From: Bacteroidota bacterium
GTDB lineage: Bacteria > Bacteroidota > Ignavibacteria > UBA10030 > UBA6906
Assembly: GCA_030835135.1 (NCBI GenBank)
Contig: JAUQWO010000064.1
Location: 124,001-188,000 of the forward strand
Reading direction: 5' to 3'
DNA length: 64,000 nt
The translations under genes were made by a program, and so were the position numbers. Of this stretch, positions 15,608-60,916 are shown piece by piece. Numbering within the stretch: the first letter of the stretch is position 1; each line of letters starts with the position of its first letter. The notes under the pieces were generated by a model. That model was not told the origin of the DNA. It saw nothing but the letters and a program-made list of their open reading frames with translations, and ran no database searches.

Positions 15608-16015
15608 ATGGCGTTGATGGATTGGCAGGAAACCCTGAGCGTTGGCGTTCCCACGATCGATACCGAGCACAAGAAGCTTGTGTCTCTGCTGAACGATCTC
15701 CACACAGCCATGCGCGAAGGCAAGAGCAAGGAAGCAATGGGCGTGGTGCTGAACGGGCTCATCACCTATACCGCGACCCACTTCGGGACCGAGGAAAAGT
15801 TCATGACCAAGCATGCGTATCCGGCGTATGCTGAACACAAGAAACAACACGATGATCTTGTGAAGCAGGCGCTGGATGTGAAAGCTGCGTTCGAAGCCGG
15901 CAAGACCGGCGTGAACATGGAACTCATGACCTTCCTGAAGGACTGGGTACAGACACATATCGTGGGGACCGACAAGAAGCTCGGAGCATTTCTGGCATCC
16001 CATGGTGTGAAGTAG
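15608..16015 (+). CDS. Bacteriohemerythrin (oxygen-binding di-iron protein)
   Basis: 135 residues, the normal length of single-domain bacteriohemerythrins. All iron ligands are visible: DTEHKKL, THFGTEEKFM (His and Glu), AEHKKQHDDL (two His) and WVQTHIVGTDKK (His and Asp). The fold binds O2 reversibly at a di-iron site and is used for oxygen storage, delivery or sensing in microaerobes. A strong GAAGGAGG site precedes ATG. A terminator follows at 16044-16072. This fits a micro-oxic or facultative lifestyle. Confidence 0.95.
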   Translation: MALMDWQETLSVGVPTIDTEHKKLVSLLNDLHTAMREGKSKEAMGVVLNGLITYTATHFGTEEKFMTKHAYPAYAEHKKQHDDLVKQALDVKAAFEAGKTGVNMELMTFLKDWVQTHIVGTDKKLGAFLASHGVK

Positions 16016-16099: not shown

Positions 16100-18625
16100 C
16101 TAGCGGATGATCACGAACTTCCGGATCTGGACGAACGTGCCGGCCTCGATCCGGTAGAAATAGACACCACTTGCGAGACCATGTCCATCAAACCGGTCTT
16201 CATGATATCCCGCATCCATCTCTCCCGACCGTACGACAGCCACCTCCTGGCCGAGCGCTGAATAGACCGCCAATCGCACTCGCGCGCGCTCGGGTAACCC
16301 GTAGCGGATCAGCGTTGAAGGATTGAAAGGATTGGGATAATTCTGATCCAGAGAATAGACATCGGGGATGTCCGATGGTGATCCTACCGCAGTGAGGGCA
16401 GCCGAGAACCTCCACGGAGCGCAGTACGCGGACGCGCCCGCAACATTCTTCGCACGCACCCGCCAGTAGTACGTCCCTGCCCCCGCAAGCGTGACAGCTT
16501 TCGTTGTATCGGTCAGGGTCGAATCGTCGAACACCGGGGATGCGAAGGTGGACGACGTCGCGACCTGCAGATGATAGGTCTCCGCCCCAGCCGCCTTCTT
16601 CCAGACACACACGGGATCCTGCGGAACCCCGACCGCCAGGTTGGATGGAAACACGAGCACAGGCATCTTCGGGACATGCGGCCATGCCGGACGACCATAG
16701 ACACCCCGCCCCCATGTCCCGGCGTAGATGGTGCCATCGGTCTGTATCGCAATGGACCTGATATCGGAGATCGGCAATCCGGAATTCAACCGGTACCACG
16801 GTGAGGTGCCATGCGTGGCGGACATCCAGACATAGTCGGTCGTCGCGACATACACATGCCCTTCGGCGTTCGTGGCGATCGCTTGTACCTTGCCAGCCGG
16901 ACCGCCGGACGCAGGGACCCACGTTGTGCCGTTGGTCGCAGAATAGTACAGGCCCGTTCCGGTTCCTGCGAACAATCTGCCGGACGGATCACACGCAAGC
17001 GCGTACACATGCAGGTCTGCCATGCCGCCCGATGCAACTGCCCAGGTCGTCCCCCGCGTCGCCGACCGGAACACACCGAATCCGTCCGTACCCGCAAAGA
17101 GCGTGTCCTGCGCGTTGTGGACCAGTGCGTACACGGTCTTGCCCGAGAGCGGTCCGGCCAGCGCGGAGTAGGCCCCACCCACGAACTTCGCGAATGCCCG
17201 CCCCGTGCTCATGGGAAGCCCTGCCAGATAGGTGGTATCACCTGTTCCGACCGTCACACCATACGGCAGGATCTTTGCCTGCCATGGGGGGGCGGAAGGC
17301 GCTCCCCCGGAATAGCCAGCGCGGACACTCTGTGTGTCCGTCCAGTCATTCGTGGTGGTCGCAACGCTCCCCCACCACGACTCATACGATACACCACCAT
17401 CCGTGAATCCTAAACCCTCCGCCACGCATGCCAGGAACCCATCGGACCCTTCTCCCATCGCCAACACGTGATAGGGGGGGAATGTTGCATGCCACGTTGC
17501 ACCGGTCCGCTGCTCCCATGGCGCGGATCCGTCCGCGGCACGCCAGATCCCCATCTGGGTGCCGGCATAGAGGATGCCGCCCCGGGTGCACAGCAACGAT
17601 GGAACGAATGTGTTCCGCAGATCTTCGGTCACATCGGTCCACCCCCGGCCCGACGCACGCAGGAGTCGCCCCGTCGATGCCGTGATGTAGAGGGTTGTAC
17701 CATCCGGACAATAGACATGCTTCGCCCCGACGCTGGCAGGTGCCGTCGTGGTCCAACTCACGCCGTTGTTCGTGGACCGGAGAAGGCTGCCATCGGCATC
17801 GACCGCATACACGTAGCCATTGGCGAGAAATGCGAATCCCCTGCCTGTGAAATTCGAATCAAGCTCCGTGTACCCCGTGCCGTCGGTCTTCAGGCGTACC
17901 AACCTGTTCGGTGACTCAATGCCAAAGATGTAGCCTCCCTTCGTGACGGCAAGATCGGACAGCACGGTGTTCGTAACGAACCTGGTCCAGGAGTTGCCGG
18001 AGGTCGTTGATTTGTAGGTCGCCTTCGTCCCCGCATCATCGCTCATGGCAAGATACAGGGCGCCGGAGGAATCCATGGCCAGATTCCGGACCCAGGGATG
18101 GCCGACATACCCGGGGACCTTCTGCTCCCAGATCGTGCCGCCATTCGTTGAGCGCATATACCATGCCCCCGCTTCGGAGGTATAGCGTCTGCGCCAGATG
18201 TTGCCTTTGCTGTCAACAAGCAGGGCGGAGATCTCGACCGTGTCGATCAGCGTCCAGGCGGATCCCTCATTTGTGGACCGGTACAGATATCCCGTGGCCG
18301 ACTCCACGTTCGGGGAATGGGGTCCCTGATAGGGATGCCCATAGGTGAGAGCCAGAAGACCGCCGTCTGGTTCCACCGCCATGAGACGGACGTTCTGCTC
18401 CTGGAGTCCGCTCGCCGCACGCTTCCAGGTCAGTCCGTCCACGGAGCGGTAGACACCTGACGCATCGGTGCCGAGGTACATGTCGCCCTCCGGAGTCCGC
18501 ACAAGGCATTGAACCTCGCCGGCGAGTGGCCCGCCGGTGTAGGTCCAGGATACCGATACTTGAGCGATCGCGACAGATGAGAAGAGCGTGGTGATCAGCA
18601 ATGCAGGGACAAATGACGTTCGCAT
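16100..18625 (-). CDS. Secreted beta-propeller (BNR/sialidase-like) protein with T9SS sorting domain
   Basis: About 841 residues from the ATG with AAGGGGG upstream; the frame is open further upstream but that part lacks export features. Signal peptide (LLITTLFSSVAIA), then many BNR-type repeats of the Y-R-S-x-N-x-G-x-x-W kind (LYRSTNEGSAWTLIDT and similar) forming propellers, a fibronectin-III-like module near residue 690-760, then a C-terminal sorting domain starting NYPNPFNPSTLIRYGLP. Proteins of this architecture leave the cell through the type IX secretion system. The asparagine/glycine-rich repeats match no specific enzyme active site, so adhesion or environmental sensing is as likely as hydrolysis. 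Confidence 0.82.
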   Translation of the reverse strand: MRTSFVPALLITTLFSSVAIAQVSVSWTYTGGPLAGEVQCLVRTPEGDMYLGTDASGVYRSVDGLTWKRAASGLQEQNVRLMAVEPDGGLLALTYGHPYQGPHSPNVESATGYLYRSTNEGSAWTLIDTVEISALLVDSKGNIWRRRYTSEAGAWYMRSTNGGTIWEQKVPGYVGHPWVRNLAMDSSGALYLAMSDDAGTKATYKSTTSGNSWTRFVTNTVLSDLAVTKGGYIFGIESPNRLVRLKTDGTGYTELDSNFTGRGFAFLANGYVYAVDADGSLLRSTNNGVSWTTTAPASVGAKHVYCPDGTTLYITASTGRLLRASGRGWTDVTEDLRNTFVPSLLCTRGGILYAGTQMGIWRAADGSAPWEQRTGATWHATFPPYHVLAMGEGSDGFLACVAEGLGFTDGGVSYESWWGSVATTTNDWTDTQSVRAGYSGGAPSAPPWQAKILPYGVTVGTGDTTYLAGLPMSTGRAFAKFVGGAYSALAGPLSGKTVYALVHNAQDTLFAGTDGFGVFRSATRGTTWAVASGGMADLHVYALACDPSGRLFAGTGTGLYYSATNGTTWVPASGGPAGKVQAIATNAEGHVYVATTDYVWMSATHGTSPWYRLNSGLPISDIRSIAIQTDGTIYAGTWGRGVYGRPAWPHVPKMPVLVFPSNLAVGVPQDPVCVWKKAAGAETYHLQVATSSTFASPVFDDSTLTDTTKAVTLAGAGTYYWRVRAKNVAGASAYCAPWRFSAALTAVGSPSDIPDVYSLDQNYPNPFNPSTLIRYGLPERARVRLAVYSALGQEVAVVRSGEMDAGYHEDRFDGHGLASGVYFYRIEAGTFVQIRKFVIIR

Positions 18626-18952
18626 AGTTCGCGCCCCCTTCGGCAATGTGGGACATGTCTCAGTGGGATGATGGATGCAGGTCACTACCGGGGAAAGTGT
18701 GCATGCGTGCGCGTGCATGTTCGATCCTCTCGATCGGGCCAAACACCGAACGTGCCGTAAGGTACCCTCCCCTTCCCCATATTGTCAAGCCTGTGCACAC
18801 AGTCCATATTTCACTCGTTGACAGCCACGTGGCCATGAATGCACTCCCCCCCGGGGGAAAAGCCCCACATTCCCTCAAATTTGCCTCATTGGAGCAGACC
18901 GCTCATGGCGTGATTTTTGCGGAGGGATGGGCAGGATCTCGCACGGTACACT
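18626..18952. other. 327-base divergent spacer between the T9SS propeller gene and the corrinoid operon
   Basis: It holds the minus-strand promoter listed at 18759-18788, a perfect 10-bp palindrome GCCACGTGGC at 18824-18833 directly after a TTGACA (18818-18823), and a C-rich/G-rich run at about 18844-18860. The palindrome could be an operator for the corrinoid operon, but no convincing -10 follows it. I saw no cobalamin-riboswitch features. Confidence 0.4.
18759..18788 (-). promoter_or_regulatory. Candidate promoter of the T9SS propeller gene
   Basis: On the minus strand TTGACA (18788-18783) is followed after 18 bases by TACCTT (18764-18759). The start codon lies about 130 bases downstream. 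Only the -35 box is a perfect consensus match. Confidence 0.4.
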
Positions 18953-19618
18953 ATGATCGATCGCGTACTGACCGCCTTCAACGAAGCTATCTTCGACACG
19001 GACCGGGAACGCGCCCTGCGCGTCATCCGTGAAGCCGAACAGGAAGGCATTCCTCCCGAGGACATCGTCTTCAAGGTCGTTGTCCCTTCGATCCACATTA
19101 TGATGAAGTCCACCAGCGAACGGAGAACCCCGAGCATCGCTCAGCATTTCGTCGCCGCACAGATCGCTTCCGAGGTCACCGAGACCATGGTGAGCCGATT
19201 TGCCCGATCTCCCGAGATCATCGGTCGGGTCGTGATCGGCACCTCCGTAGGCGACATGCACGGCCTGGGCAAGCGCATCGTGAGCGGATGCCTCAAAGCA
19301 CTGATGATCGAGGTGATCGACCTTGGCCTCAATGTCCCGGCCGAACGCTTCGTGGATGAAGCGGTCGCACAGAACGCCGACGTGATCGGCGTCTCATCCA
19401 TGATGGTCCACACCGCACGCGGTCCCTCGGCCGCTCTCGGCGTCCGCAAGATCCTGAAGGACCGGGCCCTCGAACGACGGATCAAACTTGCTGTCGGCGG
19501 CGCACCGTACCGGTTCGACCATGATCTCTATCGCACGGTCGGCGCCGACGCGTGGGCCGAGGATGGGATCATCGCAGGTACCGTGATCAGCGCACTGATC
19601 AAAGAGGCCCGGCAATGA
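18953..19618 (+). CDS. Corrinoid (cobalamin-binding) protein of methyltransferase systems
   Basis: 221 residues in the two-part MtbC/MtaC/MtgC-type layout: an N-terminal helical B12-binding-2 cap (to about residue 85) and a C-terminal Rossmann-like B12 domain with the base-off/His-on signature GDMHGLGKRI, that is D-x-H-x-x-G, near residue 100. Such proteins shuttle a methyl group on cobalamin between a substrate-specific methyltransferase and an acceptor methyltransferase. The ATG at 18953 gives the usual N-terminus; an upstream TTG frame is open but unlikely. Its stop overlaps the next start (ATGA). Confidence 0.88.
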   Translation: MIDRVLTAFNEAIFDTDRERALRVIREAEQEGIPPEDIVFKVVVPSIHIMMKSTSERRTPSIAQHFVAAQIASEVTETMVSRFARSPEIIGRVVIGTSVGDMHGLGKRIVSGCLKALMIEVIDLGLNVPAERFVDEAVAQNADVIGVSSMMVHTARGPSAALGVRKILKDRALERRIKLAVGGAPYRFDHDLYRTVGADAWAEDGIIAGTVISALIKEARQ

Positions 19619-20649
19619 TCACCTCGATGGAACGTCTCCGTGCTGCGGTCAATGGCACGCCGGCCGACAGGATCCCCGTGTTCTGCAACCTGCTCGACCA
19701 GGGCGCAAAGGAACTCGGCCTCGACCTCGAGTCGTACTACACCAGCGGCGAACACGTCGCCGAAGCCCAACTCCGTATGCTCCGGAAATACGGCCACGAC
19801 AACGTCTGGAGCCTTTTTTATGTCGGCAAGGAGGCCGAACTGCTTGGCTGCAAGCAGATCCTCTTCGCCAGCGAAGGCCCGCCCAACGTGCTGGACTTCG
19901 TCATTCGTACCCTTGAGGATATTGACGCCCTCGAAGTACCCGAACGGCTGGAAGAACACCCCGCGTTCACCGAGCAGACCCGGTGCTTTGAGATCCTGCG
20001 GCACGAGATCGGGGGAACGGTGCCGATCTGTTCGTACATCTCGTCGTCCATGACGATCCCCGCGATGCTCATGGGCATGGAACGATGGCTCGAGTTGCTG
20101 CTGCTGGGCCCCGTCGAGAAACGTGATCTGCTCATCGCAAAGTGCCACGAGTTCTTCGTGCGGGAGGTGCAGGCATGCCGGGCCGCAGGCGCCGATATCA
20201 TCGTGTATGCCAACCCCTTCGGGTCCACGGATTTTGTGCCGATGAACATCTTCACTTCGCTCTCCCTGCCGTGGATCATACGCGATATCCAGGCGATCGG
20301 ACCGGCCGGCGTGGTCTATTATTGCGGCATGGCGAGGATGAATGACGTCATCGCAACGGTGCGCGAACAGACAGGGCTCGGTGCGTATTACGTCAGCCCC
20401 CTGGATGATCTTGCCGAGGCGAAACAGATGATCGGGACGCAGGGACTGACCTGCGGGGTCATCAACGACATCCGACTGATCGAGTGGACTCCCGACGAGA
20501 TCCGTCAGGAGGTCAAGCGCATGATGGCAACCGGTATGCCCGGTGGACATTTCCTGTTCGGCACCGGCGTCATGCCCTATTGCATTCCCGAAGCGAACAT
20601 CAGGACCATGCTCGATGCCGCATACGAATACGGCCAGTGGCTCCACTAG
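19615..20649 (+). CDS. Uroporphyrinogen-decarboxylase-family corrinoid methyltransferase
   Basis: 344 residues of the UroD/MtaA/MtbA/CmuA superfamily, which moves methyl groups between a corrinoid protein and a thiol or folate. Start MERLRAAVNGTPADRIPVF and the late MPGGHFLFGTGVMPYCIP are typical. In MtaA-type enzymes zinc is held by H-x-C and a later C; here VVYYCGM replaces the H-x-C with Y-x-C style (the histidine is absent), while the later Cys in MPYC is kept. That suggests altered metal binding or a different acceptor. Its position directly after a corrinoid protein supports the methyltransferase role over haem synthesis. Confidence 0.85.
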   Translation: MITSMERLRAAVNGTPADRIPVFCNLLDQGAKELGLDLESYYTSGEHVAEAQLRMLRKYGHDNVWSLFYVGKEAELLGCKQILFASEGPPNVLDFVIRTLEDIDALEVPERLEEHPAFTEQTRCFEILRHEIGGTVPICSYISSSMTIPAMLMGMERWLELLLLGPVEKRDLLIAKCHEFFVREVQACRAAGADIIVYANPFGSTDFVPMNIFTSLSLPWIIRDIQAIGPAGVVYYCGMARMNDVIATVREQTGLGAYYVSPLDDLAEAKQMIGTQGLTCGVINDIRLIEWTPDEIRQEVKRMMATGMPGGHFLFGTGVMPYCIPEANIRTMLDAAYEYGQWLH

Positions 20650-21250
20650 TGCACGGACACAGGAGCAGACTGTTCTCATAGGCTGCGGGATCCTCGCCCG
20701 GGAGATCCGGACTTTGATCAGGAAGAATCACTGGCCTCTCGAGACTGTCCTGCTCGATTCCGACCTCCACAATGACTATTGCTCGCTCGAGAAAGCGCTG
20801 GCATCCTCACTCTCCGAGCACCAGACGGACCGGACGGTCGTCTTCTACGGATGCTGCCATCCCAGGATCGACGAGATCGTCGCCGGCGCGGCGACCGTGC
20901 GCACGCAGGGACAAAACTGTATCGAGATGCTTCTCGGTCGTGATGTGTTCACCACGGAACTGGAACAGGGGGCGTACTTCCTGGTGGAACCCTGGGCCCG
21001 GAACTGGCACCGGGTGATCATGCATGCATTCGGTACCGCGAATCCCGATGTGATCCGGTCCATCTTCAACGAGGACCGGCGCTACCTTCTCGCCCTCCGC
21101 ACCCCCTGCACAACCGATTTCACCGTGGACGCGGAAGAAGCAGGCCGCATCGCCGGCCTGCCGGTCCGGTGGATGGATGTCTCTCTCGACCACCTGGAAC
21201 ACACACTCCGCGCCGCCTTCGTCCTCCGGTCCTCACGGAACGCACCATGA
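20615..21250 (+). CDS. DUF1638-family protein of the corrinoid operon
   Basis: 211 residues. The start at 20615 has AGGA 9 bases upstream and overlaps the methyltransferase end by 35 bases; there is no later in-frame start before the conserved VLIGCGILAREI segment. Conserved features are that IGCG motif, VVFYGCCHPRIDEI, GQNCIEMLLG and FLVEPWARNW. Family members are typically encoded beside corrinoid proteins and methyltransferases and carry conserved cysteines, so a role in corrinoid or metal handling is often assumed, but I know of no established biochemical function. Stop overlaps the kinase start (ATGA). Confidence 0.75.
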   Translation: MPHTNTASGSTSARTQEQTVLIGCGILAREIRTLIRKNHWPLETVLLDSDLHNDYCSLEKALASSLSEHQTDRTVVFYGCCHPRIDEIVAGAATVRTQGQNCIEMLLGRDVFTTELEQGAYFLVEPWARNWHRVIMHAFGTANPDVIRSIFNEDRRYLLALRTPCTTDFTVDAEEAGRIAGLPVRWMDVSLDHLEHTLRAAFVLRSSRNAP

Positions 21251-23301
21251 ACGGGAAGGCTGCCACGGACCACGAGACTGCCGCCCTGGAAGAACGGATC
21301 CGCAGACTCGCCGGTGAGAAATCCTCGCTGGAACTGGTGATCAGCCTGATGAACCGGATGAGTGCAGCACCGGGGCTGGACACCACGATCGAGAACATGC
21401 TTCGCGCCGTTGCCGATGTGATCGGCGGGGTCGACCTCATCCTGTACTATGTGAGCGACGGCGAGATCCATTCAACCGACATCAACAACACGGCCCGGGT
21501 GCACACCGCGATCGCGGATCCCCTGGTGCAACGCGTGTTCACCTCACGGCACTTGGAGGAGATCGAACTGCCGTTCGAGGACACCCGGATGACCACGGAG
21601 GAATTCGCCCATGCCTACACCTGGGCGGTCCCCCTCCTGGTGGGTGAAGAACTTATCGGCGTCTTCAAGATCGAATGCCTGCACATCAGCCTCGGTGAGA
21701 TGCCGAGAGAGCTTTCGACCTTCTTCTCGTATGCCGCCATGGTCCTGAAGAACAGGATCCTGGGACATTCCCGTCTGCAACGCGCATACACCGCGCTCTC
21801 CGAGGAAGTGGCCGTCCGCACGAAGGCAGAAGAGGAACTCCGCGATCTGAACAAGGACCTCGAAGGGCGTGTGCTCGCACGGACCGCACAGTTACAGGCG
21901 GCGAACGAACAGCTCAGGGCCAGCGAGGAGCGGTTCTCGGCAGCGTTTCACCACAGCCCGATCGCCAGTTCCATTACCCGGGCGGACGACCTGCGCCTCG
22001 TCGACGTCAACGACGTCTTCCTCGCCTCCAGCGGATACACCAGGGATGAGCTCATCGGCAAGGTCCCGTCAGAGCTCGGGCTCTTCGAACGGGGAAAGGA
22101 ACTCACTGCCGCCCTCGAGTCGCTCCGCGCCCACGGCGAATCGCCCCCCTTTGAATCCCGCTACCGCACGAAGTCCGGAACCACCGGAGTGAATCTCCAC
22201 GCGATCCGGGTGATCGCTATCGGTGGCGTGCCGCATCTCCTGGCGATGACGCTGGATATCACCGATCGCAAGCGCTCCAGCGAGAAGGCCAATCAACTCG
22301 CCGCGATCGTCCAATCCTCGGAGGACGCGATCATTGGCAAAGACCTCGCCGGGATCATCACGAGCTGGAACCCCGGCGCCGAACGGATCTACGGGTATAC
22401 CGAGCGCGAAGCGATCGGTCAGCCCATCGCAATGTTGCTTCCGCCCGGGCATGAAGAAGAAGGTCAGGAGATCATCCGCCGCGTCCTGGCCGGCGAACAC
22501 ATCGAACACTATGAGGCGATGCGGTGCACCCGGTCGGGCGACCACCTGCTCATGTCGCTCAGTGTCTCTCCTATCCGCAACGCGGACGGCCAGGTGATCG
22601 CCGCATCCACGATCGCACGCAACATCACGGAAAAGCGCCGTTCGGAGGATGCCCTCCGCCGATCCCTGCGGGAGAAGGAGATCATGCTGAAGGAGATCCA
22701 TCACCGGGTCAAGAACAACCTGCAGATCATCTCCAGCCTTCTGAGCCTCCAGTCCGGCCGGTATCGCGATCAGGAGATCCTCCGCGCCTTCGATGAGAGT
22801 CAGCGCCGTGTCCGCACCATGGCGATGGTGCACGAACAGTTGTACCGGTCCGAGAATTTCGCCAGCATCAACTTCGGTGAAAACCTCACACGGATCACCC
22901 GCGAATTGATCTCGGCGTACGGCCGGCCGGGCATCCGCCTCTCGATGGAGATCGAGCCGGTGACCCTCGCGATCGATAACGCGATCCCATGCGGCCTCAT
23001 CGCGAACGAACTCCTCTCGAATGCCTTGAAACATGCCTTTCCGGGGGGACGCGCGGGGACCCTCACCGTCGGACTGCACATGATCGATCCCGCACACGCA
23101 CGCCTTGTCGTGAGTGACGATGGCGTGGGGCTCCCCGAAGGCAAGCGGGGATGCAGCAACCCCACGACCCTCGGCATGACCCTCGTGACCTCCCTGGCCG
23201 AGCAGATCGACGGCTCCCTGACATGCGCCACCGGGTCCGGGTGCACATTCACCCTCGATATCCCCCTCACCGCCGCCGATCCCGGGTACCTGCCGCCTTG
23301 A
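21247..23301 (+). CDS. GAF-PAS-PAS sensor histidine kinase (HisKA_2 type)
   Basis: 684 residues with no membrane segment, so cytosolic. Order: GAF-like domain (about 30-180), coiled coil (190-225), PAS (about 230-345), second PAS (about 355-470, WNPGAERIYGYTEREAIG), HisKA_2 dimerisation/phosphoacceptor helix with EIHHRVKNNLQIISSLLSLQ (His at about 485), and an HATPase domain (NELLSNALKHAF, DDGVGLP, GMTLV). This kinase class usually signals to stand-alone receivers. It is translationally coupled to the corrinoid/methyltransferase genes, which suggests it senses or reports on that pathway. No response regulator is adjacent. Confidence 0.9.
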   Translation: MNGKAATDHETAALEERIRRLAGEKSSLELVISLMNRMSAAPGLDTTIENMLRAVADVIGGVDLILYYVSDGEIHSTDINNTARVHTAIADPLVQRVFTSRHLEEIELPFEDTRMTTEEFAHAYTWAVPLLVGEELIGVFKIECLHISLGEMPRELSTFFSYAAMVLKNRILGHSRLQRAYTALSEEVAVRTKAEEELRDLNKDLEGRVLARTAQLQAANEQLRASEERFSAAFHHSPIASSITRADDLRLVDVNDVFLASSGYTRDELIGKVPSELGLFERGKELTAALESLRAHGESPPFESRYRTKSGTTGVNLHAIRVIAIGGVPHLLAMTLDITDRKRSSEKANQLAAIVQSSEDAIIGKDLAGIITSWNPGAERIYGYTEREAIGQPIAMLLPPGHEEEGQEIIRRVLAGEHIEHYEAMRCTRSGDHLLMSLSVSPIRNADGQVIAASTIARNITEKRRSEDALRRSLREKEIMLKEIHHRVKNNLQIISSLLSLQSGRYRDQEILRAFDESQRRVRTMAMVHEQLYRSENFASINFGENLTRITRELISAYGRPGIRLSMEIEPVTLAIDNAIPCGLIANELLSNALKHAFPGGRAGTLTVGLHMIDPAHARLVVSDDGVGLPEGKRGCSNPTTLGMTLVTSLAEQIDGSLTCATGSGCTFTLDIPLTAADPGYLPP

Positions 23302-38701: not shown

Positions 38702-39367
38702 CTATTGCCAGAAGCTGGCGTCCAGCATGAGGTCCCGCACCCCATTGATCACGAACTGAGCTCCGATACACACAAGCAGAAATCCCATGATCCGTGAGAG
38801 GCTATTGACCCCATTGATACCCAGCACACGGCGGAGCCCCCCCGCTCCCCGCAGAACGAGCCATGACACCAGCGCCGCAAGAACGATCGCGATCACGACG
38901 CCGGCATAGGCCCACGGCTTGTCGTTCCCCTGGCGCCCGTTGATCGTCGAGGACATGGTGATGACCGTTGCGATCGCACCGGGGCCGGCCAAGCTGGGCA
39001 TAGCCAGCGGACTGAACGAGATGTCCCGCTTCTGTTCGACCTCCGGATCGACCACAACCGCAGGCTTGTTCTCTTCAGGAAAGAGCATCCGGAATCCGAG
39101 AAGGCCAATGACCAGTCCGCCGGCAATGCGGATGCCCGGAATGGAGATCCCAAAGACCAGCATGACAAGATGCCCGGCCAGCAGGAACGTCACGAGGATC
39201 CCTGTCATGTAGATGCAGGCCCATGTGACCTGCCGGTTGCGCTCCTGCACGGTCAGGTGGGTGCTGATGCTGAGGAGCAGGACCGCGGCGCTGATGGGGT
39301 TGATGATCGGCACGAGCGTAATAAGCGTGACACCCACCCATGAGAGGAAATCCCCGAGGCCGCTCAT
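38702..39367 (-). CDS. MarC-family integral membrane protein
   Basis: 221 residues with six hydrophobic helices and the family segments FLSWVGVTLITLVPIINPIS at the N-terminus, LLGFRMLF, and SPLAMPSLAGPGAIATVITM in the middle. MarC/UPF0056 proteins are widespread inner-membrane proteins without an agreed transport substrate. The ATG at 39367 overlaps the stop of the small phosphoketolase-tail ORF upstream (ATGA), so the two are translationally coupled. A longer in-frame start upstream is unlikely. Confidence 0.9.
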   Translation of the reverse strand: MSGLGDFLSWVGVTLITLVPIINPISAAVLLLSISTHLTVQERNRQVTWACIYMTGILVTFLLAGHLVMLVFGISIPGIRIAGGLVIGLLGFRMLFPEENKPAVVVDPEVEQKRDISFSPLAMPSLAGPGAIATVITMSSTINGRQGNDKPWAYAGVVIAIVLAALVSWLVLRGAGGLRRVLGINGVNSLSRIMGFLLVCIGAQFVINGVRDLMLDASFWQ

Positions 39368-39516
39368 GAGGCTTCCCCGGAGGGTGGTGCGGCCCACCTC
39401 CAGTCCACGATCAGGGGCATGTCTTCGCCGTAGCGTTCGATATAGATCCTGTGTTCACGCAACTCCCGGGTCAGGGGTTCTGGGTGTGAACCGCGAGACT
39501 GTTCGCGCATATGCAT
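39364..39516 (-). CDS. 50-residue stand-alone phosphoketolase C-terminal-tail protein
   Basis: A short ORF with AAGGG 9 bases before ATG, ending in an ATGA overlap with marC. Its product contains LTRELREHRIYIERYGEDMP followed by LIVDWRW, which is the well-known C-terminal tail of xylulose-5-phosphate/fructose-6-phosphate phosphoketolases (pattern L-x-E-x-x-E-H-x-x-Y-I-x-x-x-G-E-D-M-P-x-I-x-x-W-x-W). The thiamine-diphosphate and transketolase-like domains are absent, and no other phosphoketolase gene lies in the window. It may be a relic or an independently kept small protein; coupling to marC favours retention. Confidence 0.7.
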   Translation of the reverse strand: MHMREQSRGSHPEPLTRELREHRIYIERYGEDMPLIVDWRWAAPPSGEAS

Positions 39517-39558
39517 TCCCCGCTACCCTTCAGTGGTGACAGCGTTATCCCGCGTTCC

Positions 39559-40230
39559 CTACCGGAGTGCACCGCTCTCCGCGGCATCCTTCATCTTCTC
39601 ATTCGCGAAGATGGCGACTTCGACGCGCCTGTTGAGCTGACGGCCTGCGGCATTGTCATTCGACGCCACAGGATGCAGCTCGCCGGTCCCGACGGTGGAG
39701 ATCCTCGAGGCGGGGACCCCCTGGCCCTTATGATAGTCGGCAACGGCCTGTGCACGACGTTCCGAAAGCGCTTGATTGTACTGGGTCGTGCCTTCGTTAT
39801 CCGTCGCACCTTCGATCAGGATATTGGTATCGGGGTACTTGTTCAGGATCCTTGCGAGATTGTCGATGTTCGCTCTGGCAGCGGGCTGGAGTTCCGACGA
39901 ATTCGTGACGAACAGGATGCCGGAGTCGAATGTGATCTTGATCCCTTCCCCGACGCGTTCCACTTTCGCGTTGGCGAGATCCCGTCTCAATTCCTCTGCC
40001 CGCTTGTCCATATTGTTCCCGATGATAGCTCCGGTGGTACCACCCACCGCCGCGCCGATGATCGCACCAAGCGCCGTGTTCCCCGCCGCGTTCCCAATCA
40101 ACCCACCCACCACGGCCCCACCGCCCGCGCCGATCGCCCCACCCTTTACCGCATTGCTCGCCGAGCAACCCACGAAGATCGTGGCGATGCAGAGCACCGT
40201 GGCAAGTGTTCCCTTGTGGTAGAATCTCAT
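39559..40230 (-). CDS. OmpA-family lipoprotein with glycine-zipper domain
   Basis: 223 residues: lipobox ATIFVGC, a glycine-zipper stretch (about 30-70; GGAIGAGGGAVVGGLIGNAA) likely to insert in or cross a membrane, a short charged helix, and an OmpA-like peptidoglycan-binding domain (about 105-215) with NSSELQPAARANIDNLARIL and the ATDNEG...LSERRAQAV...NRRVEVAI signature. It should tether the outer membrane to the wall. It is similar in build to YiaD-type proteins. GAGAGG precedes the ATG; the upstream frame does not look coding. Confidence 0.88.
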   Translation of the reverse strand: MRFYHKGTLATVLCIATIFVGCSASNAVKGGAIGAGGGAVVGGLIGNAAGNTALGAIIGAAVGGTTGAIIGNNMDKRAEELRRDLANAKVERVGEGIKITFDSGILFVTNSSELQPAARANIDNLARILNKYPDTNILIEGATDNEGTTQYNQALSERRAQAVADYHKGQGVPASRISTVGTGELHPVASNDNAAGRQLNRRVEVAIFANEKMKDAAESGALR

Positions 40231-40403
40231 TGCAGACCTCTCTGAGAAAAAATGCGCAGCACATTGACCCCCTCCACATTGCTCGCACGACTCTGCGAGG
40301 TGAATGAACCGAGACCCGTGCCCGGCAACGCTCCCATGAACTTCTGGCGTTCCATCCCGGGTCGTTCCTGGCACCACGACAGTGCACGATACCGAGGGAT
40401 ACG

Positions 40404-40553
40404 CTACACGAGCTTCTTGCCGCTGATGACCCGTACCAGGATCGAAATGATCGCCAGCACCAACAACACATGCACGAACCCTCCCATGGTATAGGAGGTG
40501 ACCAACCCGAGAAGCCACAGGACGACGAGAACGACTGCAATGGTATAGAACAT
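40404..40553 (-). CDS. Small lmo0937-family membrane protein
   Basis: 49 residues with two transmembrane helices (TIAVVLVVLWLLGLVTSYTM and VHVLLVLAIISILVRVI), the pattern of the lmo0937 family, often found near CsbD and other general-stress genes. AAGGA lies 8 bases before the ATG. Upstream in-frame residues look non-coding. Function unknown. Confidence 0.8.
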   Translation of the reverse strand: MFYTIAVVLVVLWLLGLVTSYTMGGFVHVLLVLAIISILVRVISGKKLV

Positions 40554-40679
40554 GGTGATAATCCTTCTCTTGTGAACCACGTACGTCGGTATCTGGTGCG
40601 GAATACACGTCCAGCCATCCCTGCTGGTGCCGGGAACTTCCGTCGTCCCGACCTCAAGAGAATTCACGAGCCGATCATC

Positions 40680-41858
40680 CTACCTGAACATCGTCCCGTA
40701 GAACCGGATGCCCTCTACCTGACGCTCCACTTCCCACAAACATTCCCATCCCGAATGGTCCTCTTTCTTGCTCGACCGCCCGAACCGTGGGGGACGGTAG
40801 AACACATTGATACCCTCTTTCATGGCCGGGAGAACATACCCGGGGACATCAGCGCAATCGCAATAGCCGGTCGTTACTCCCCTCGCCTGCATCGTTCGGG
40901 ATGCCGTGGCCAGAGCAGCATCGTACGCCTTTCCCACCGCCCGGACGTACTCCTGCACACTGTCCACATCGTACACCACCACGCTCACGGCCGTTTGAAC
41001 CTCCGTCGTTAACCTGTCGAATGCATGTCGGGCAAATCGGGCCGCCAATGCCGGAACATCTCCACCCGTCAACGTGGAATCCAATCCTTCCAGCTTGTGC
41101 AGGGCGAAGTACGACAGATGCAGATTGTCAGGCGAGGCAACAATGAACCGCGCTGAGGTCCCCAGAGATCCTATGGTGTACGGGGTCCCTCCGTAACAGG
41201 TCGACAGGATCATGAGATCGTACCTGTCGTTCCCCCGGGTGAATCCCTGCACACCATCCGCCAGATCACGCACCGTGAAGGGCCGGTCCGGATAAGACGC
41301 GTCGTACCCCGTCCCTCCAAACTCCGGGATCCCATGGCCAAAATACATGAACAACGATGTTGCACCGGATCCCTGTCCCCCGTGGAAACGCTGGAACAGT
41401 TCCCCTTCGGGGGCAAGGTGCGACCGCTCCTGGTCCCGCCAGTAGTTCTCGTGCACGACAAGCCGCCCGCCCCGGTAATAGAACATTTCACCGTCGCTCA
41501 CCGGGAAGAAGAGCCACGCCGTGCCCGCGTGTTTCTGGTGAAAGATCCAGACCTCGGCAGATGGGTTGCTTTCTGCGATCACTTTCATGCCCGCGAGCGC
41601 TTCCTCATCTGCCATGTGGCCGTTCCCGCTGGTGTCATGGTAGAGATAGTTCCCATCACCATGGATGACGCACACGATCGACAACCGCACCGGCGGATCT
41701 GCTTCCCCCCCCTGCACCCTGCCACGCTGGAGCGGAGTACCGGCGCCACAGGAGGATAGGACGAGGGCAAGCATGATGTACCCGAGAGCCAGGGCACTCC
41801 GGCCCTGACCCCCGGTACGGATATTGCTTCGCCCGATGTTCGCCAATGTGTTGTGCAT
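40680..41858 (-). CDS. Lipoprotein with clostripain-like (C11, caspase-fold) peptidase domain
   Basis: 392 residues. The lipobox is ALVLSSC (about residue 37). A caspase-haemoglobinase-type core follows: a strand with IVCVIHGDGNYLYHD, the predicted catalytic histidine in FMYFGHGIPEFGG (about 175) and the predicted catalytic cysteine in LMILSTCYGGTPYTIG (about 220). Order and spacing fit clan CD peptidases such as clostripain C11. The His-Gly and Cys positions are seen directly; activity is inferred. It sits 10 bases after a signal-peptide/TM gene in the stress island, so a periplasmic protease or cleavage-activated factor in envelope stress is possible. GGGGAG precedes ATG. Confidence 0.65.
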   Translation of the reverse strand: MHNTLANIGRSNIRTGGQGRSALALGYIMLALVLSSCGAGTPLQRGRVQGGEADPPVRLSIVCVIHGDGNYLYHDTSGNGHMADEEALAGMKVIAESNPSAEVWIFHQKHAGTAWLFFPVSDGEMFYYRGGRLVVHENYWRDQERSHLAPEGELFQRFHGGQGSGATSLFMYFGHGIPEFGGTGYDASYPDRPFTVRDLADGVQGFTRGNDRYDLMILSTCYGGTPYTIGSLGTSARFIVASPDNLHLSYFALHKLEGLDSTLTGGDVPALAARFARHAFDRLTTEVQTAVSVVVYDVDSVQEYVRAVGKAYDAALATASRTMQARGVTTGYCDCADVPGYVLPAMKEGINVFYRPPRFGRSSKKEDHSGWECLWEVERQVEGIRFYGTMFR

Positions 41859-41868
41859 GGGACTCCCC

Positions 41869-42336
41869 TTACCTGAGCAAGAGGATCAACACAATGATAC
41901 CGACCAGCAGCGTGACAAGACTGATGGTGATGACCTGGTCGGCCTGTTCAGTGTCCTGCACGATGAACTCTGCGAAGGCATTGAGCCGCGCATCCGGTAC
42001 TGCCTCATAGCCGTTGGTGCCGGACAGTTGGTGCTGTTTGTCGAGCAGCGAGGTCCTGAGACGTTCGATCCCGATCGCATCGGCACTCGAGAGGGTCGGT
42101 GATTCATGAAGAATATCCAGGACCCGGGTCATTGTGCCCATGGAGCCGGTGAGGATGGCACGCTTTTCAGCCGCCACATTCGTACTCTTCACTCGGTGGG
42201 CGGTATCCTTGAGGTATTGCTGGAGGTCTCCTTTACCATCGGCATGGGCCGACAGCCCGAGAAGGGACATCATGATGGTTACGGCGAGAACGTTGTGAGC
42301 TTTCATTGCGGTAGCTTTCGATAAGTGGGACGGCAT
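41869..42336 (-). CDS. Exported small protein with C-terminal membrane anchor, unknown function
   Basis: 155 residues from an ATG with AGGAG 7 bases upstream. It has a signal peptide ending SAHA, a mostly helical periplasmic part (LQQYLKDTAHRVKSTNVAAE and a DAIGIERLRTSLLD stretch) and a C-terminal hydrophobic helix (VITISLVTLLVGIIVLILLL) followed by a single Arg. No family recognised. It is 10 bases ahead of the clostripain-like gene and probably co-translated. Confidence 0.65.
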   Translation of the reverse strand: MPSHLSKATAMKAHNVLAVTIMMSLLGLSAHADGKGDLQQYLKDTAHRVKSTNVAAEKRAILTGSMGTMTRVLDILHESPTLSSADAIGIERLRTSLLDKQHQLSGTNGYEAVPDARLNAFAEFIVQDTEQADQVITISLVTLLVGIIVLILLLR

Positions 42337-42392
42337 CAACTTCTCCTGCAACGACTGTGGTGACACAACACCTTCTGCGGCCCGCCCCCGCC

Positions 42393-42578
42393 CTACAGCT
42401 TTCCGATCAACGCGCGCACTTCGTCCCTGGTCTTTCCGAGCTTCTTCTGCAACCTCCCCAGAAGCTCTTCCTCCTTGCCCTCACGAAAGAGCACGTCATT
42501 GTCTGTCAGTCCGGCGAACTGCTGCTTGAGTTTGCCGGCCATCTCGTTCCAGTTGCCTGTGATGGTGAGTGTGTCCAT
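42393..42578 (-). CDS. CsbD-family general stress protein (short)
   Basis: 61 residues. The CsbD signature is WNEMAGKLKQQFAGLTDNDV followed by EGKEEELLGRLQKKLGKTRDEV. CsbD-like proteins are small, highly charged and induced in general stress, with unknown molecular action. The ATG at 42578 (GAGG 10 bases upstream) is preferred over one nine codons upstream, which lacks a ribosome site. Confidence 0.88.
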   Translation of the reverse strand: MDTLTITGNWNEMAGKLKQQFAGLTDNDVLFREGKEEELLGRLQKKLGKTRDEVRALIGKL

Positions 42579-42608
42579 GGTCAATGTCCTCTGGCCGATC
42601 TTCATGTT

Positions 42609-43049
42609 CTATCCGATCCTCTTGTACAGATCCCTCATCGTGTCACCGATCCCATCCAGTTCGTGCTTCACATCCGTCTTGAACGTTTCCCAGGCGGTTT
42701 CTCCCTGATCGCTGTAGTCCGCCAACTTCTTCTTCAATTGCATGTTCTTCTGTTCGAGAACGGCGAGGTCCTTGGCATACTCTACCTTCGCCTTCTTTCC
42801 TGCTTTGGTGATCTGTGTTGCGAGCGAGTCGATCGCTCTTTCGTTCGCGACGATCACCAGCTCGGTCTCGCGCTTGAAGGACTGCCAATCCGCACGATAG
42901 CTGTCCCGTGCTTCCTTCAGCTGCTGCGTGGTTTCTGTCGCTCTCATACGCGCAGCATCGACTTTCTGATCGGCGGTGTTGTCGCACCCGGCCAGGAGCA
43001 TCCCTGCCATCGAAGCCACAAGAGTTGCGACACCAAATGCATTCTTCAT
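42609..43049 (-). CDS. Coiled-coil lipoprotein
   Basis: 146 residues with a clear lipobox (GMLLAGC) and a helical, lysine/glutamate-rich body (TQQLKEARDSYRADWQSFKR, VLEQKNMQLKKKLADY). The ATG at 43049 has AGGAAGG 6 bases upstream. It may be a periplasmic helical spacer or chaperone; no defined family. It lies 30 bases upstream of the csbD-like gene in the same direction. Confidence 0.68.
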   Translation of the reverse strand: MKNAFGVATLVASMAGMLLAGCDNTADQKVDAARMRATETTQQLKEARDSYRADWQSFKRETELVIVANERAIDSLATQITKAGKKAKVEYAKDLAVLEQKNMQLKKKLADYSDQGETAWETFKTDVKHELDGIGDTMRDLYKRIG

Positions 43050-43078
43050 GATCATCCTTCCTGATTGAGTTGCGTCGT

Positions 43079-43693
43079 TCAGATCGCACCTGCAAAAAGC
43101 ACGATGCCCGAAACGATGATCAGTATGCCCGCGACGCGGCTGACCCATCGCATTCCACCGGCGGTGATCTTCCCATAGAACAATGTTGCGACGGTGCCAA
43201 GGCTCTGGAACCAGAGATTCGAGCCTACGAAGACGCCGAGCACCAGGAGGATCGCTTCAGCGACCCCGTGTTCCTGCCCGAGCCCGAGCATCGCGAAGAC
43301 AGCGATGAACGCGAAGATGGACAACGGGTTGGTCAGCGCCAGCACAAGTGAGGAGAGGTAGATTCCCCACAAGCCGCGGCTCTCAAAGAACTGTGATGGA
43401 TCGGTGGTGCGCTTTGCCTTCAGTGTCCTGATGCCGAGGACGAGCAGGAGCACGCCTCCGACCAGACGAACCCAGAAGGCCTGACCTTCGATCACATCCA
43501 GGACGACGGTCAGGCCGAACGCTGCTATCGCGCTATACAATGCATCGACCGTCGCAGCTCCGAGTCCGATGACCATGCCCCGTCCTCGCCCTTCGGTAAG
43601 GGTCTTGCGGATACACAGGACACCGAGCGGGCCGATGGGCACTGCCATCGCGAAGCCGATGATCAGGCCTTTGAGTGGTACCGTTGCATCCAT
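43079..43693 (-). CDS. LysE-family translocator
   Basis: 204 residues, six hydrophobic helices, with the family N-terminus GLIIGFAMAVPIGPLGVLCI and RKTLTEGRGRGMVIGLGAAT, and LALTNPLSIFAF in the middle. LysE/RhtB proteins export amino acids or related small cations. The gene follows a hairpin at 43763-43802 after the OmpA gene and could be expressed at a different level from the genes before it. Substrate cannot be inferred. Confidence 0.9.
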   Translation of the reverse strand: MDATVPLKGLIIGFAMAVPIGPLGVLCIRKTLTEGRGRGMVIGLGAATVDALYSAIAAFGLTVVLDVIEGQAFWVRLVGGVLLLVLGIRTLKAKRTTDPSQFFESRGLWGIYLSSLVLALTNPLSIFAFIAVFAMLGLGQEHGVAEAILLVLGVFVGSNLWFQSLGTVATLFYGKITAGGMRWVSRVAGILIIVSGIVLFAGAI

Positions 43694-43762
43694 GGACTTC
43701 TCTCTTGACCAGATAGTGTCCGCCGGACCTCGATGCCGTATCTCCACGTGTTCCGAAGGATC

Positions 43763-58566: not shown

Positions 58567-59319
58567 ATGGCTGACCTCCTCACCGCAAAAGAGCTTCAAG
58601 ACCTCCTGAAGATCGACCGGACGACCATCTACCGCATGCTTACGGATGGGCGCCTCAAGGGGGTGAAAGTTGGCAACCAATGGCGATTCCCGAAGGATGC
58701 TGTTGATGCCCTGCTCTCAGGCGCCCGGCCAGAGGACACAGAGAAGACACCGACGGCGCATCAGGTGCTCCCCCTCAACTGTATCCAACCCATCCAGGAT
58801 GTTTTCGCGGACATCACGCAGGTCAGTTCCCTCACGACTGCCCCGGACGGAACGCCACTCACGCAGCTCAGCAGCCCGTGTGCATTCTGCTCGTTGATCC
58901 TGGGTTCAGCTTCGGGGAAGGAAGCGTGCGTCGCATCGTGGCGGAAGCTGGCAACGCAGCAGGAAGTGAAGCCCCGCTTCATCATGTGCCATGCCGGGCT
59001 GCACTACGCGCGGGCACGGATCGAGATCGGGGGGACTCTTGTCGCGATGGTGGTGGCGGGACAGTTCTACGCCGCGGCACCCGACCGTGCCGAGGAGCAG
59101 GGGCGCATTCGGGCGCTGGCAACGACACACGGCATCCCTGTCGAGACATTGGTGACGGCAGCACACGAGATCCCCGTGGTGGACGCACGGAAGGAAGCAC
59201 AGATCGGAACATGGATGGAGAAGATCGCAGGGACCTTCGAGCACTTCGGAAAGGAACGCTCGGAGATGATGTCGCGCTTGCGCCGGATAGCGGATATTAC
59301 GGCGATCGATGCGCCATGA
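58567..59319 (+). CDS. Excisionase-type HTH regulator with PocR sensory domain
   Basis: 250 residues. The N-terminus is a MerR/excisionase-like winged HTH (LLTAKELQDLLKIDRTTIYR, GRLKGVKVGNQWRFP, residues 1-50). From about residue 68 is a PocR domain: SPCAFCSLILGSASGKEACV, FIMCHAGLHYARARIEIGG and VVAGQFYA, with the cysteine set typical of the family. PocR domains bind small hydrocarbon-type ligands, for example propanediol in Salmonella PocR. Divergent from a FadL-type channel. No Shine-Dalgarno is evident; the leader is short. The last 414 bases overlap the antisense radical SAM ORF. Confidence 0.87.
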   Translation: MADLLTAKELQDLLKIDRTTIYRMLTDGRLKGVKVGNQWRFPKDAVDALLSGARPEDTEKTPTAHQVLPLNCIQPIQDVFADITQVSSLTTAPDGTPLTQLSSPCAFCSLILGSASGKEACVASWRKLATQQEVKPRFIMCHAGLHYARARIEIGGTLVAMVVAGQFYAAAPDRAEEQGRIRALATTHGIPVETLVTAAHEIPVVDARKEAQIGTWMEKIAGTFEHFGKERSEMMSRLRRIADITAIDAP

Positions 59320-60858
59320 CCCGCGGGCCCAGGCCGTTTCGGCTGCGCCTCCGGCTCCGGGCGCGAGCCGCGTACCTCCGAAATGCGCTTCAAACACCCG
59401 CCGGAAATGCGATCCGTAGATCGCGAGGGTGATCGCCGTAGAGAACAATCGCGGACGGCGAAACAGCGACCAAAAGAATAGCTGCCAGTAGTGGAGCCGC
59501 TCCTTCCCCACCATCCCGAGCAGGACCATGGACTTGATGACGGCGACAAGCTGCGCGGGACCGACCGGTGCGCGGTGCAACTGCGGTGGCGTGTGCCCCC
59601 TGAGGAATTCCGTGACCCGACGATAGTATTCCCCCGGCGAGTAGACCGTTGCCAGTATCTTCCGATATCCCTCCAGAAGCACACTCCGGTCCATCTTCGG
59701 CGAGAAGTTCATCGAGAAATCCGTATTGTTCCCAGTGAACACGTCCAGCAGACGTTCCTCCTTTTTCAACCGTGCGTGCAGGCGTGAGTTGATCGGGGCA
59801 TTCAACAACCCGACCATCGCCACCACGATGCCGCTCTCCCTGATGAATTGGATCAACGCATCAAAGATCGCCGGCGGGTCGTTGTCGAACCCAACGATGA
59901 ACCCGCCCTGCACCTGCAATCCGGCCTTCTGCAACACCTTCACACTCGCGATCATATCCCGCCCCCTGTTCGGGGTCTTCTTGCACTCCTCCAGGCTCTC
60001 CGGATTCGGACTCTCGATCCCGACGAACACTTCTTCGAAACCTGCCCGGGCCACCATCGCCAGCAGGTCGGGATCGTCTGCAAGGTTGAGTGAGGCTTCC
60101 GTGCCGAGTGAGAATGGATATCCATGGACCTCCATCCACGTGATCACGGCTGGCAGGACCTCCTTCTTCAGCTTGTCTCTGTTCCCGATGAAGTTATCAT
60201 CCACGAAGAAGACGTGCCCGCGCCATCCCGTCGCATACACCGCCTCCAGCTCAGCGATCACCTGGCCTGCGGACTTGGTTCGCGGCCGGTGTCCGTAGAG
60301 CACGGTGATGTCACAGAATTCACAATCATACGGACAGCCCCTCGAGTACTGAACGTTCATCGTTGCATAGTTCCGCTGGTCGATCAGTTCCCACAGGGGA
60401 AGCGGGGTCGATGAAAGATCGGCCCAGGCGGCCGTCGTGTAGCACGCCTGTGGTGTACCCCGCCGGAGATCCTCCAGGAATTGCGGCAGGGTGATCTCCG
60501 CTTCGTTCAGCACGAAATGGGCAACCCCCGTAAATTCCGCATGCCGCGCGGTGAAGAGTGGCCCTCCTGCGACAACAGGGACTCCGGCTGCATTGCACCG
60601 TGCGATCACCTCACGCGCAGAATCCGCCTGCACCGACATGCCGCCCAGGAACACATAGTCGGCCCAGCGGAGATCGCCGTCAGCAAGCGGAGCAATGTTG
60701 AGATCGACGAGCTTCTTCGAACACTCCTGCGGAAGGAGTGCCGCTACGGTCAGCAATCCGAGCGGCGGCTGACCCGCCTTGCGGGCGATGAACGAGAGCG
60801 CATGTTTGAAGGACCAGAAGGTATCAGGGTATTCGGGACAGACGAGAAGAATGTTCAT
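58906..60858 (-). CDS. B12-binding-domain radical SAM protein with unusual 3' extension
   Basis: 650 residues from the ATG with GGGAG upstream. Residues 1-140 are a B12-binding-like Rossmann domain (MNILLVCPEYPDTFW, VFLGGMSVQADSAREVIARC), 160-390 a radical SAM barrel with the cluster motif RGCPYDCEFCD (CxxxCxxC) and FFVDDNFIGNRDKL, followed by a DUF4070-like region (MNFSPKMDRSVLLEGYRKIL). Family members usually end near residue 500, around YGSHFRRVFEAHF. Here the frame stays open another 137 codons antisense to the PocR gene, giving Cys/His-rich sequence that looks non-native. A lost stop codon or sequence error near 59330 is possible. Element E lies just upstream. Confidence 0.82.
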   Translation of the reverse strand: MNILLVCPEYPDTFWSFKHALSFIARKAGQPPLGLLTVAALLPQECSKKLVDLNIAPLADGDLRWADYVFLGGMSVQADSAREVIARCNAAGVPVVAGGPLFTARHAEFTGVAHFVLNEAEITLPQFLEDLRRGTPQACYTTAAWADLSSTPLPLWELIDQRNYATMNVQYSRGCPYDCEFCDITVLYGHRPRTKSAGQVIAELEAVYATGWRGHVFFVDDNFIGNRDKLKKEVLPAVITWMEVHGYPFSLGTEASLNLADDPDLLAMVARAGFEEVFVGIESPNPESLEECKKTPNRGRDMIASVKVLQKAGLQVQGGFIVGFDNDPPAIFDALIQFIRESGIVVAMVGLLNAPINSRLHARLKKEERLLDVFTGNNTDFSMNFSPKMDRSVLLEGYRKILATVYSPGEYYRRVTEFLRGHTPPQLHRAPVGPAQLVAVIKSMVLLGMVGKERLHYWQLFFWSLFRRPRLFSTAITLAIYGSHFRRVFEAHFGGTRLAPGAGGAAETAWARGSWRIDRRNIRYPAQARHHLRAFLSEVLEGPCDLLHPCSDLCFLPCVHHGDLVCCRHQCLDRDAVCRCQRPNAPLLLGTVGCRGVELSRHHHRDKSPPDLDPCPRVVQPGMAHDEAGLHFLLRCQLPPRCDARFLPRS

Positions 60859-60916
60859 CGGACGGCTCCCACGGGTCAGCGGCAGCATGCATGCAGGGGG
60901 TATCACCCCCCACACG

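Follow-up and report, generated by a model that had tools for sequence, protein, structure and literature searches.

Why should a sensor histidine kinase be encoded in one chain with the parts of a corrinoid methyl-transfer unit? The question is raised by a locus in a 64,000-nucleotide stretch of contig JAUQWO010000064.1 from a bacterium of the Ignavibacteria (Bacteroidota), the whole of which is referred to here as the window. Four genes on the forward strand (18953-23301), together called the cassette, encode a corrinoid protein, a URO-D methyltransferase, a DUF1638 protein and a histidine kinase, in this order. We found that the corrinoid protein, a URO-D protein lacking the zinc site and DUF1638 make up a conserved unit, encoded in one operon with, or fused to, a signalling protein bearing a conserved GAF domain, and the cassette is very probably a signalling module. 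More specifically, it is rather likely that the cassette is a sensory input module and not a catabolic methyltransferase, and that DUF1638 conveys the methylation or cobalt state of the corrinoid protein to the signalling protein's GAF domain.

The original prediction held that the four genes are chained by ATGA or longer overlaps, and both the coordinates and the Pfam matches of the products bear this out. The corrinoid and URO-D genes share an ATGA (19615-19618), the URO-D and DUF1638 genes overlap by 35 bp (20615-20649), and the DUF1638 and kinase genes again share an ATGA (21247-21250). Because the gene on the 5' side (16100-18742) is divergent and the 3' neighbour encodes a secreted protein, the four genes seem to form a self-contained unit, the G+C content of which equals that of its flanks. 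Promoter and terminator scans performed no better than on shuffled sequences, and an Rfam scan of the window gave no match, and thus no cobalamin riboswitch at the cassette.

We scanned 84,980 species genomes, together with samples of Bacteroidota and Pseudomonadota, and mapped the loci with domain models built here; the same gene set, which the original prediction had proposed to look for, was found in other genomes. The unit counted was the triad of corrinoid, URO-D and DUF1638 genes, of which 31 were not cut by a contig end; L039, L116 and L118 were cut in this way, and L108, L114 and L117, the upstream genes of which were off the contig or not found, were left out. A signalling protein was encoded next to DUF1638 or fused with it in 29 of the 31 triads, which belong to Ignavibacteria-type Bacteroidota and Pseudomonadota; 24 of these 29 partners contained a kinase or GGDEF/EAL domain and 5 contained GAF/PAS domains only. 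By comparison, none of the 17 non-triad DUF1638 loci had a signalling protein (Fisher p about 4e-11, which is only a guide because the loci are phylogenetically related), and we therefore rejected the possibility that the kinase adjoins the unit by chance. Loss of the kinase from relatives, the outcome against which the original prediction was to be measured, was thus not the rule, and a second lineage even has it fused to DUF1638.

Two architectures were distinguished. Type A has the order (RamA)-corrinoid-URO-D-DUF1638-output, and in type B the corrinoid and URO-D genes are followed by a single gene for a DUF1638-GAF-HisKA-HATPase fusion. Such DUF1638-GAF-kinase fusions were found at L065, L066, L107, L109-L113 and L115 and in Azoarcus KH32C. 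Three separate URO-D lineages (A1, A2 and B) were each paired with signalling genes. The conserved signalling partner and the fusion of DUF1638 to the kinase support the earlier suggestion that the cobalamin unit works as a sensor tied to the kinase.

The outputs, by contrast, are exchangeable. The window cassette has a HisKA_2 output, L036 and L104 have HisKA-REC-HPt outputs, and HisKA-REC outputs occur at L018, L019, L097, L105 and L106. The output is a GGDEF-EAL protein with a CZB domain at L037, a PAS/GAF kinase of 2,537 residues at L047, and a kinase with the cassette-specific GAF domain described below (GAFN) at L099; it consists of GAF/PAS domains only at L098, L100, L102 and L103, and of GAF only at L053. 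REC domains are fused to or adjoin the output in many relatives; no response regulator gene adjoins the window cassette.

Further genes accompany some of these outputs. What looks like a long signalling operon at L098 (4840-15841) begins with genes for RamA, corrinoid, URO-D, DUF1638 and GAF/PAS proteins, after which come those for an NMT1-like binding protein, a membrane kinase-REC and a REC-PAS-kinase; the gene order at L100 (3-11472) is similar, the domains having been checked for L098, and the NMT1-like substrate-binding protein of these two loci may provide a second input. At L019 (9377-11756), two genes on the strand of the cassette immediately precede it, one for a chemoreceptor with a C-terminus resembling the CZB zinc-binding domain and one for a PAS protein; CZB is also the last domain of the GGDEF-EAL output at L037. 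As a further case in which a corrinoid unit is coupled to signalling, a related corrinoid-URO-D-RamA-GAF/GGDEF diguanylate cyclase operon without DUF1638 was seen on plasmid pTs417 of Candidatus Thiodictyon syntrophicum (L148, record 38703-43694).

The window kinase (21247-23301, ATG to TGA, 684 residues) has the domain order GAF-PAS-PAS-HisKA_2-HATPase. Pfam recognises the two PAS domains, and both the HisKA_2 dimerisation and phosphoacceptor domain (22693-22920, residues 483-558; PF07568, 5.3e-29) and the HATPase_c domain (22996-23271, residues 584-675; PF02518, 6e-11), which like all features of the cassette are on the forward strand, score above the cut-off; the H-box EIHHRVKNNLQ and the N and G boxes are intact in the sequence. 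The N-terminal ~200 residues are homologous among the output proteins (alignment A9) and make up GAFN, a cassette-specific GAF domain (21247-21846 in the window). In 10 cassette genomes GAFN is a single-copy domain located at the cassette, G692 alone having an extra copy, and it was not found in 3 of 3 relatives that have no cassette. Pfam barely recognises this domain, and its AlphaFold2 (AF2) model (pLDDT 79) matches GAF structures with a Foldseek probability of 1.00. The order DUF1638-GAF-output is probably the same whether the genes are split or fused, and it is above all this shared order that argues for putting DUF1638 in the middle, with the corrinoid unit before it and the signalling protein after it. 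The extra copy in G692 belongs to a second GAFN-kinase-REC protein (L130, contig 29, 7275-10586). No gene of the triad is present there in 15 kb, and this orphan output may be served in trans by the cassette.

The window DUF1638 protein (20615-21250, ATG to TGA, 211 residues) is of a short form and matches PF07796 (4e-27) with 95.5 bits against a gathering cut-off of 27. Three cysteines, C24, C81 and C102, are invariant in the family sample (alignment A10), in signalling and metabolic forms alike. The AF2 model (pLDDT 89.8) is an alpha/beta fold in which each of them lies at or just past the end of a beta-strand, and in this model they could perhaps form a metal or redox site. A function could not be assigned from the fold, as Foldseek gave no solved match above a TM of about 0.4, and a PDB sequence search yielded nothing credible. 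DUF1638 is required, with a RamA-like protein, for B12-dependent methionine synthesis, for which no role of it was proposed (PMC5764234), and the open-access literature searched describes no link of DUF1638 to signalling. At L042 (7992-8560), the DUF1638 gene is split over two open reading frames by an apparent frameshift, possibly a sequencing error, and the remaining cassette is intact.

The two upstream genes encode what appear to be the parts of a methyl-transfer reaction. The corrinoid (B12-binding) protein (18953-19618, ATG to TGA, 221 residues) is MtbC/MtgC-like, with a cap and a Rossmann domain; it matches PF02310 (8e-21) and, weakly, PF02607, and falls below the cut-off of TIGR02370. 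Its cobalt-ligand motif DxHxxG reads DMHGLG, and D101, H103 and G106 are invariant (alignment A7). The URO-D protein (19615-20649, ATG to TAG, 344 residues) belongs to the MtaA/CmuA superfamily (PF01208, 1.4e-43), scores 94 bits with the MtaA/CmuA model TIGR01463, the curated cut-off of which is 235, and has a predicted URO-D fold, which is, with that of MttB, a fold of methyltransferase I. Alignment to MtaA (4ay7) confirmed that H-x-C is replaced by YYC (VVYYCG in the window protein), as first read from the sequence, and the third ligand, a cysteine, is missing too. The zinc site is lost in 33 of 33 triad URO-D proteins and kept in all 6 metabolic paralogues (one of them, L026, readable at the first motif only). 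Judged from these alignments, the loss argues against thiol methylation by the triad proteins. It is no argument against methyl:corrinoid transfer, because CdmB of the chloromethane system, a zinc-free URO-D protein, is a methyl:corrinoid transferase (PMC13222342). Elsewhere in the window, the reverse strand (58906-60915) encodes a probable B12-binding radical SAM protein with a CPYDCEFCD motif, its B12-binding match lying below the cut-off.

The host genome (88 contigs, 4.9 Mb) contains one further DUF1638 gene, of a longer form, on contig 46, where it is clustered with genes for a corrinoid protein, a RamA-like activase and a URO-D protein that keeps the zinc motif (L016); this cluster is similar to the gene set that serves B12-dependent methionine synthesis with DUF1638 and RamA (PMC5764234). 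The long-form cluster is the only one of the two in the same-genus genomes G001 and G002, which makes the window cassette a patchy addition. A tree of the URO-D proteins places the window copy inside clade A1 (support 100/99), which is otherwise mostly from Pseudomonadota, a position consistent with horizontal transfer between phyla.

What kind of compound is bound, what chemistry follows and which way the signal runs we infer as follows. The URO-D protein would bind a methylated compound and, as a zinc-free transferase like CdmB, transfer the methyl group to the corrinoid protein in its Co(I) form. Depending on whether the cobalt is then methyl-Co(III), Co(II) or Co(I), the corrinoid protein would fit DUF1638 differently, and DUF1638 would in turn act on the GAF domain and switch the kinase or cyclase. 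Cobalt would be reset, or held as Co(I), by a RamA-type activase encoded either within the cassette or outside it; as the set includes no acceptor enzyme, the methyl mark would persist, like a tag that can be reset, until it is removed by demethylation or photolysis. That the methyl or redox state of the corrinoid is the signal appears likely, and that DUF1638 is the relay somewhat more probable than its opposite. The chances seem to us evenly balanced that the cassette represents a new class of sensor, in which the full corrinoid methyltransferase reaction, with RamA, the corrinoid protein and zinc-free URO-D, is the input, DUF1638 and the GAF domain form the relay, and the outputs are kinases or c-di-GMP turnover.

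Several points weigh against reading the cassette as a sensory input module. Two triads are exceptions to the pairing: L062 has no co-directional output gene, and L048, an intermediate form, carries DUF1638 with a GAF-like domain and has its kinases separate and upstream. The catalytic partner of the GAF-only outputs (the L098 group and L053) is unproven. The homology of the type A and type B GAF domains is weak, the type B stretch between DUF1638 and the kinase aligning to GAFN with an hhalign E of 5e-4 and a probability of 32%. It may also be that the URO-D protein has no activity and serves only as a scaffold. Finally, by analogy with MecA (PMC9768040), a kinase encoded beside corrinoid genes can do no more than regulate a catabolic operon in the ordinary way.

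This last point leads to the main rival, which we consider unlikely: that the cassette is an ordinary catabolic or assimilatory methyltransferase operon, the kinase of which only regulates expression, as MecA does in the mec cassette. That cassette does unite a corrinoid protein, URO-D proteins and a PocR kinase (PMC9768040), zinc-free CdmB does act in catabolism (PMC13222342), and the Azoarcus KH32C copy sits in a methylotrophy island. However, the methyl-transfer partners that such an operon calls for were missing. No MttB was found in the whole window genome or in any of the 10 cassette genomes, this one included, and a catabolic unit with a remote MttB was therefore rejected. In 8 of 8 cassette genomes the pterin-binding proteins were one FolP-sized and one MetH-like, which rejects a remote pterin methyltransferase II (MTII), and the cassettes read contained no MTII gene. 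With the zinc site lost throughout and no dedicated pterin MTII, a methyl acceptor enzyme of either the thiol zinc type or the pterin type was lacking. The fusion of DUF1638 to the kinase and the GGDEF-EAL output are likewise unexpected of an operon regulator, and no DNA-binding response regulator is linked to the kinase in the window.

The original prediction had noted the absence of MttB/MtaB-type and RamA-type proteins, and had named an MttB/RamA pair acting from elsewhere with these genes in ordinary methyl catabolism as a finding that would speak against it. The first part holds for MttB across the genome (MtaB, PF12176, was not searched for) and for RamA at the cassette only, since a single RamA-like activase is encoded on contig 46 (C46:239052-239738). 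RamA, then, exists without MttB, and in the Pseudomonadota a RamA-like gene lies directly upstream and heads most type A cassettes. From these genes Co(I) is probably needed, which fits a Co(I)-requiring sensor as well as an enzyme.

The Azoarcus sp. KH32C locus (L147, plasmid pAZKH, record 271288-276437, AZKH_RS24050-RS24065) consists of a type B cassette and a second kinase, the fusion being annotated only as 'ATP-binding protein'. Formylmethanofuran dehydrogenase genes border it on one side and a PQQ methanol/ethanol dehydrogenase cluster on the other, in a methylotrophy island with fae, fhc and mch, a setting that suggests, for this one case, a C1 compound as the ligand. At L036, a PQQ alcohol dehydrogenase gene lies ~3 kb from the kinase. 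A general link to C1 genes was rejected, as no fetched locus beyond these two matched the C1 enzymes tested.

A second rival, which we place after the first as likewise improbable, is that the cassette senses cobalt redox state, oxygen or light through the Co(I)/Co(II) balance or alkyl-cobalt photolysis, the URO-D protein being a mere scaffold and no methyl group being transferred. The lost zinc site and the presence of RamA and DUF1638 would suit such a sensor, the downstream PAS and GAF domains often read redox or light, and the B12 protein CarH is a light sensor. A gene for a bacteriohemerythrin-type protein (PF01814) also lies ~3 kb 5' of the cassette on the forward strand (15608-16015), and an oxygen link is conceivable. 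Against this, a URO-D protein is present in every cassette and is conserved over its full length (alignment A6), which is more than a redox-sensing scaffold needs. It is very unlikely that the genes are only co-expressed in an accidental operon spread as a unit by horizontal transfer: the window copy does nest among Pseudomonadota and is missing from G001 and G002, but three lineages are each paired with signalling genes, the pairing stays while the outputs change, and the fusion in lineage B together with the output swapping already speaks against it.

If the cassette is indeed a sensory input module, bacteria would sense methylated compounds by B12 methyl transfer and not only eat them, the signal would be carried by a covalent organometallic mark, and DUF1638 would gain a testable function, namely to read or service the corrinoid protein as its partner; such a modular input could serve in biosensors for methyl compounds. 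Two-component and c-di-GMP signalling are already known kinds; in the open-access literature we found no earlier description of a corrinoid methyltransferase unit as an input to either.

Among known systems, CarH resembles the cassette in using a B12-binding domain for sensing. This B12-dependent photoreceptor differs in being a one-component DNA-binding repressor that uses adenosylcobalamin and involves no methyltransferase.

The mlp gene clusters were rejected as the same set, a text search of their description (PMC10418091) finding no DUF1638 or kinase. MsmS and RdmS of Methanosarcina are kinases called methyltransferase-associated; they have no H-box, and they differ further in that no corrinoid protein is mentioned alongside them and there is no DUF1638 fusion (PMC11784639). 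The Cdm chloromethane system (CdmB/CdmC) resembles the cassette in pairing a zinc-free methyl:corrinoid transferase of the URO-D fold with a dedicated corrinoid protein, but it is catabolic, has the MTII CdmA and, by text search, includes no kinase and no DUF1638 (PMC13222342). The mec cassette for dichloromethane (MecA-J) likewise brings a histidine kinase, a corrinoid protein and URO-D-family methyltransferases into one cluster; it is degradative, its kinase bears a PocR domain, its other parts include an MTII, a transporter and a regulator of the receiver type, and DUF1638 is not listed (PMC9768040), whereas the window kinase has no PocR domain and no dedicated MTII accompanies it. In the split B12 methionine synthases of Phaeobacter inhibens (PMC5764234) and Ruegeria (mtgC/mtgD; PMC12478193), a corrinoid protein, DUF1638 and a RamA-like activase act together; the cassette, which has no methyl acceptor enzyme, differs from these in combining a zinc-less URO-D protein, a short DUF1638 and a signalling protein.

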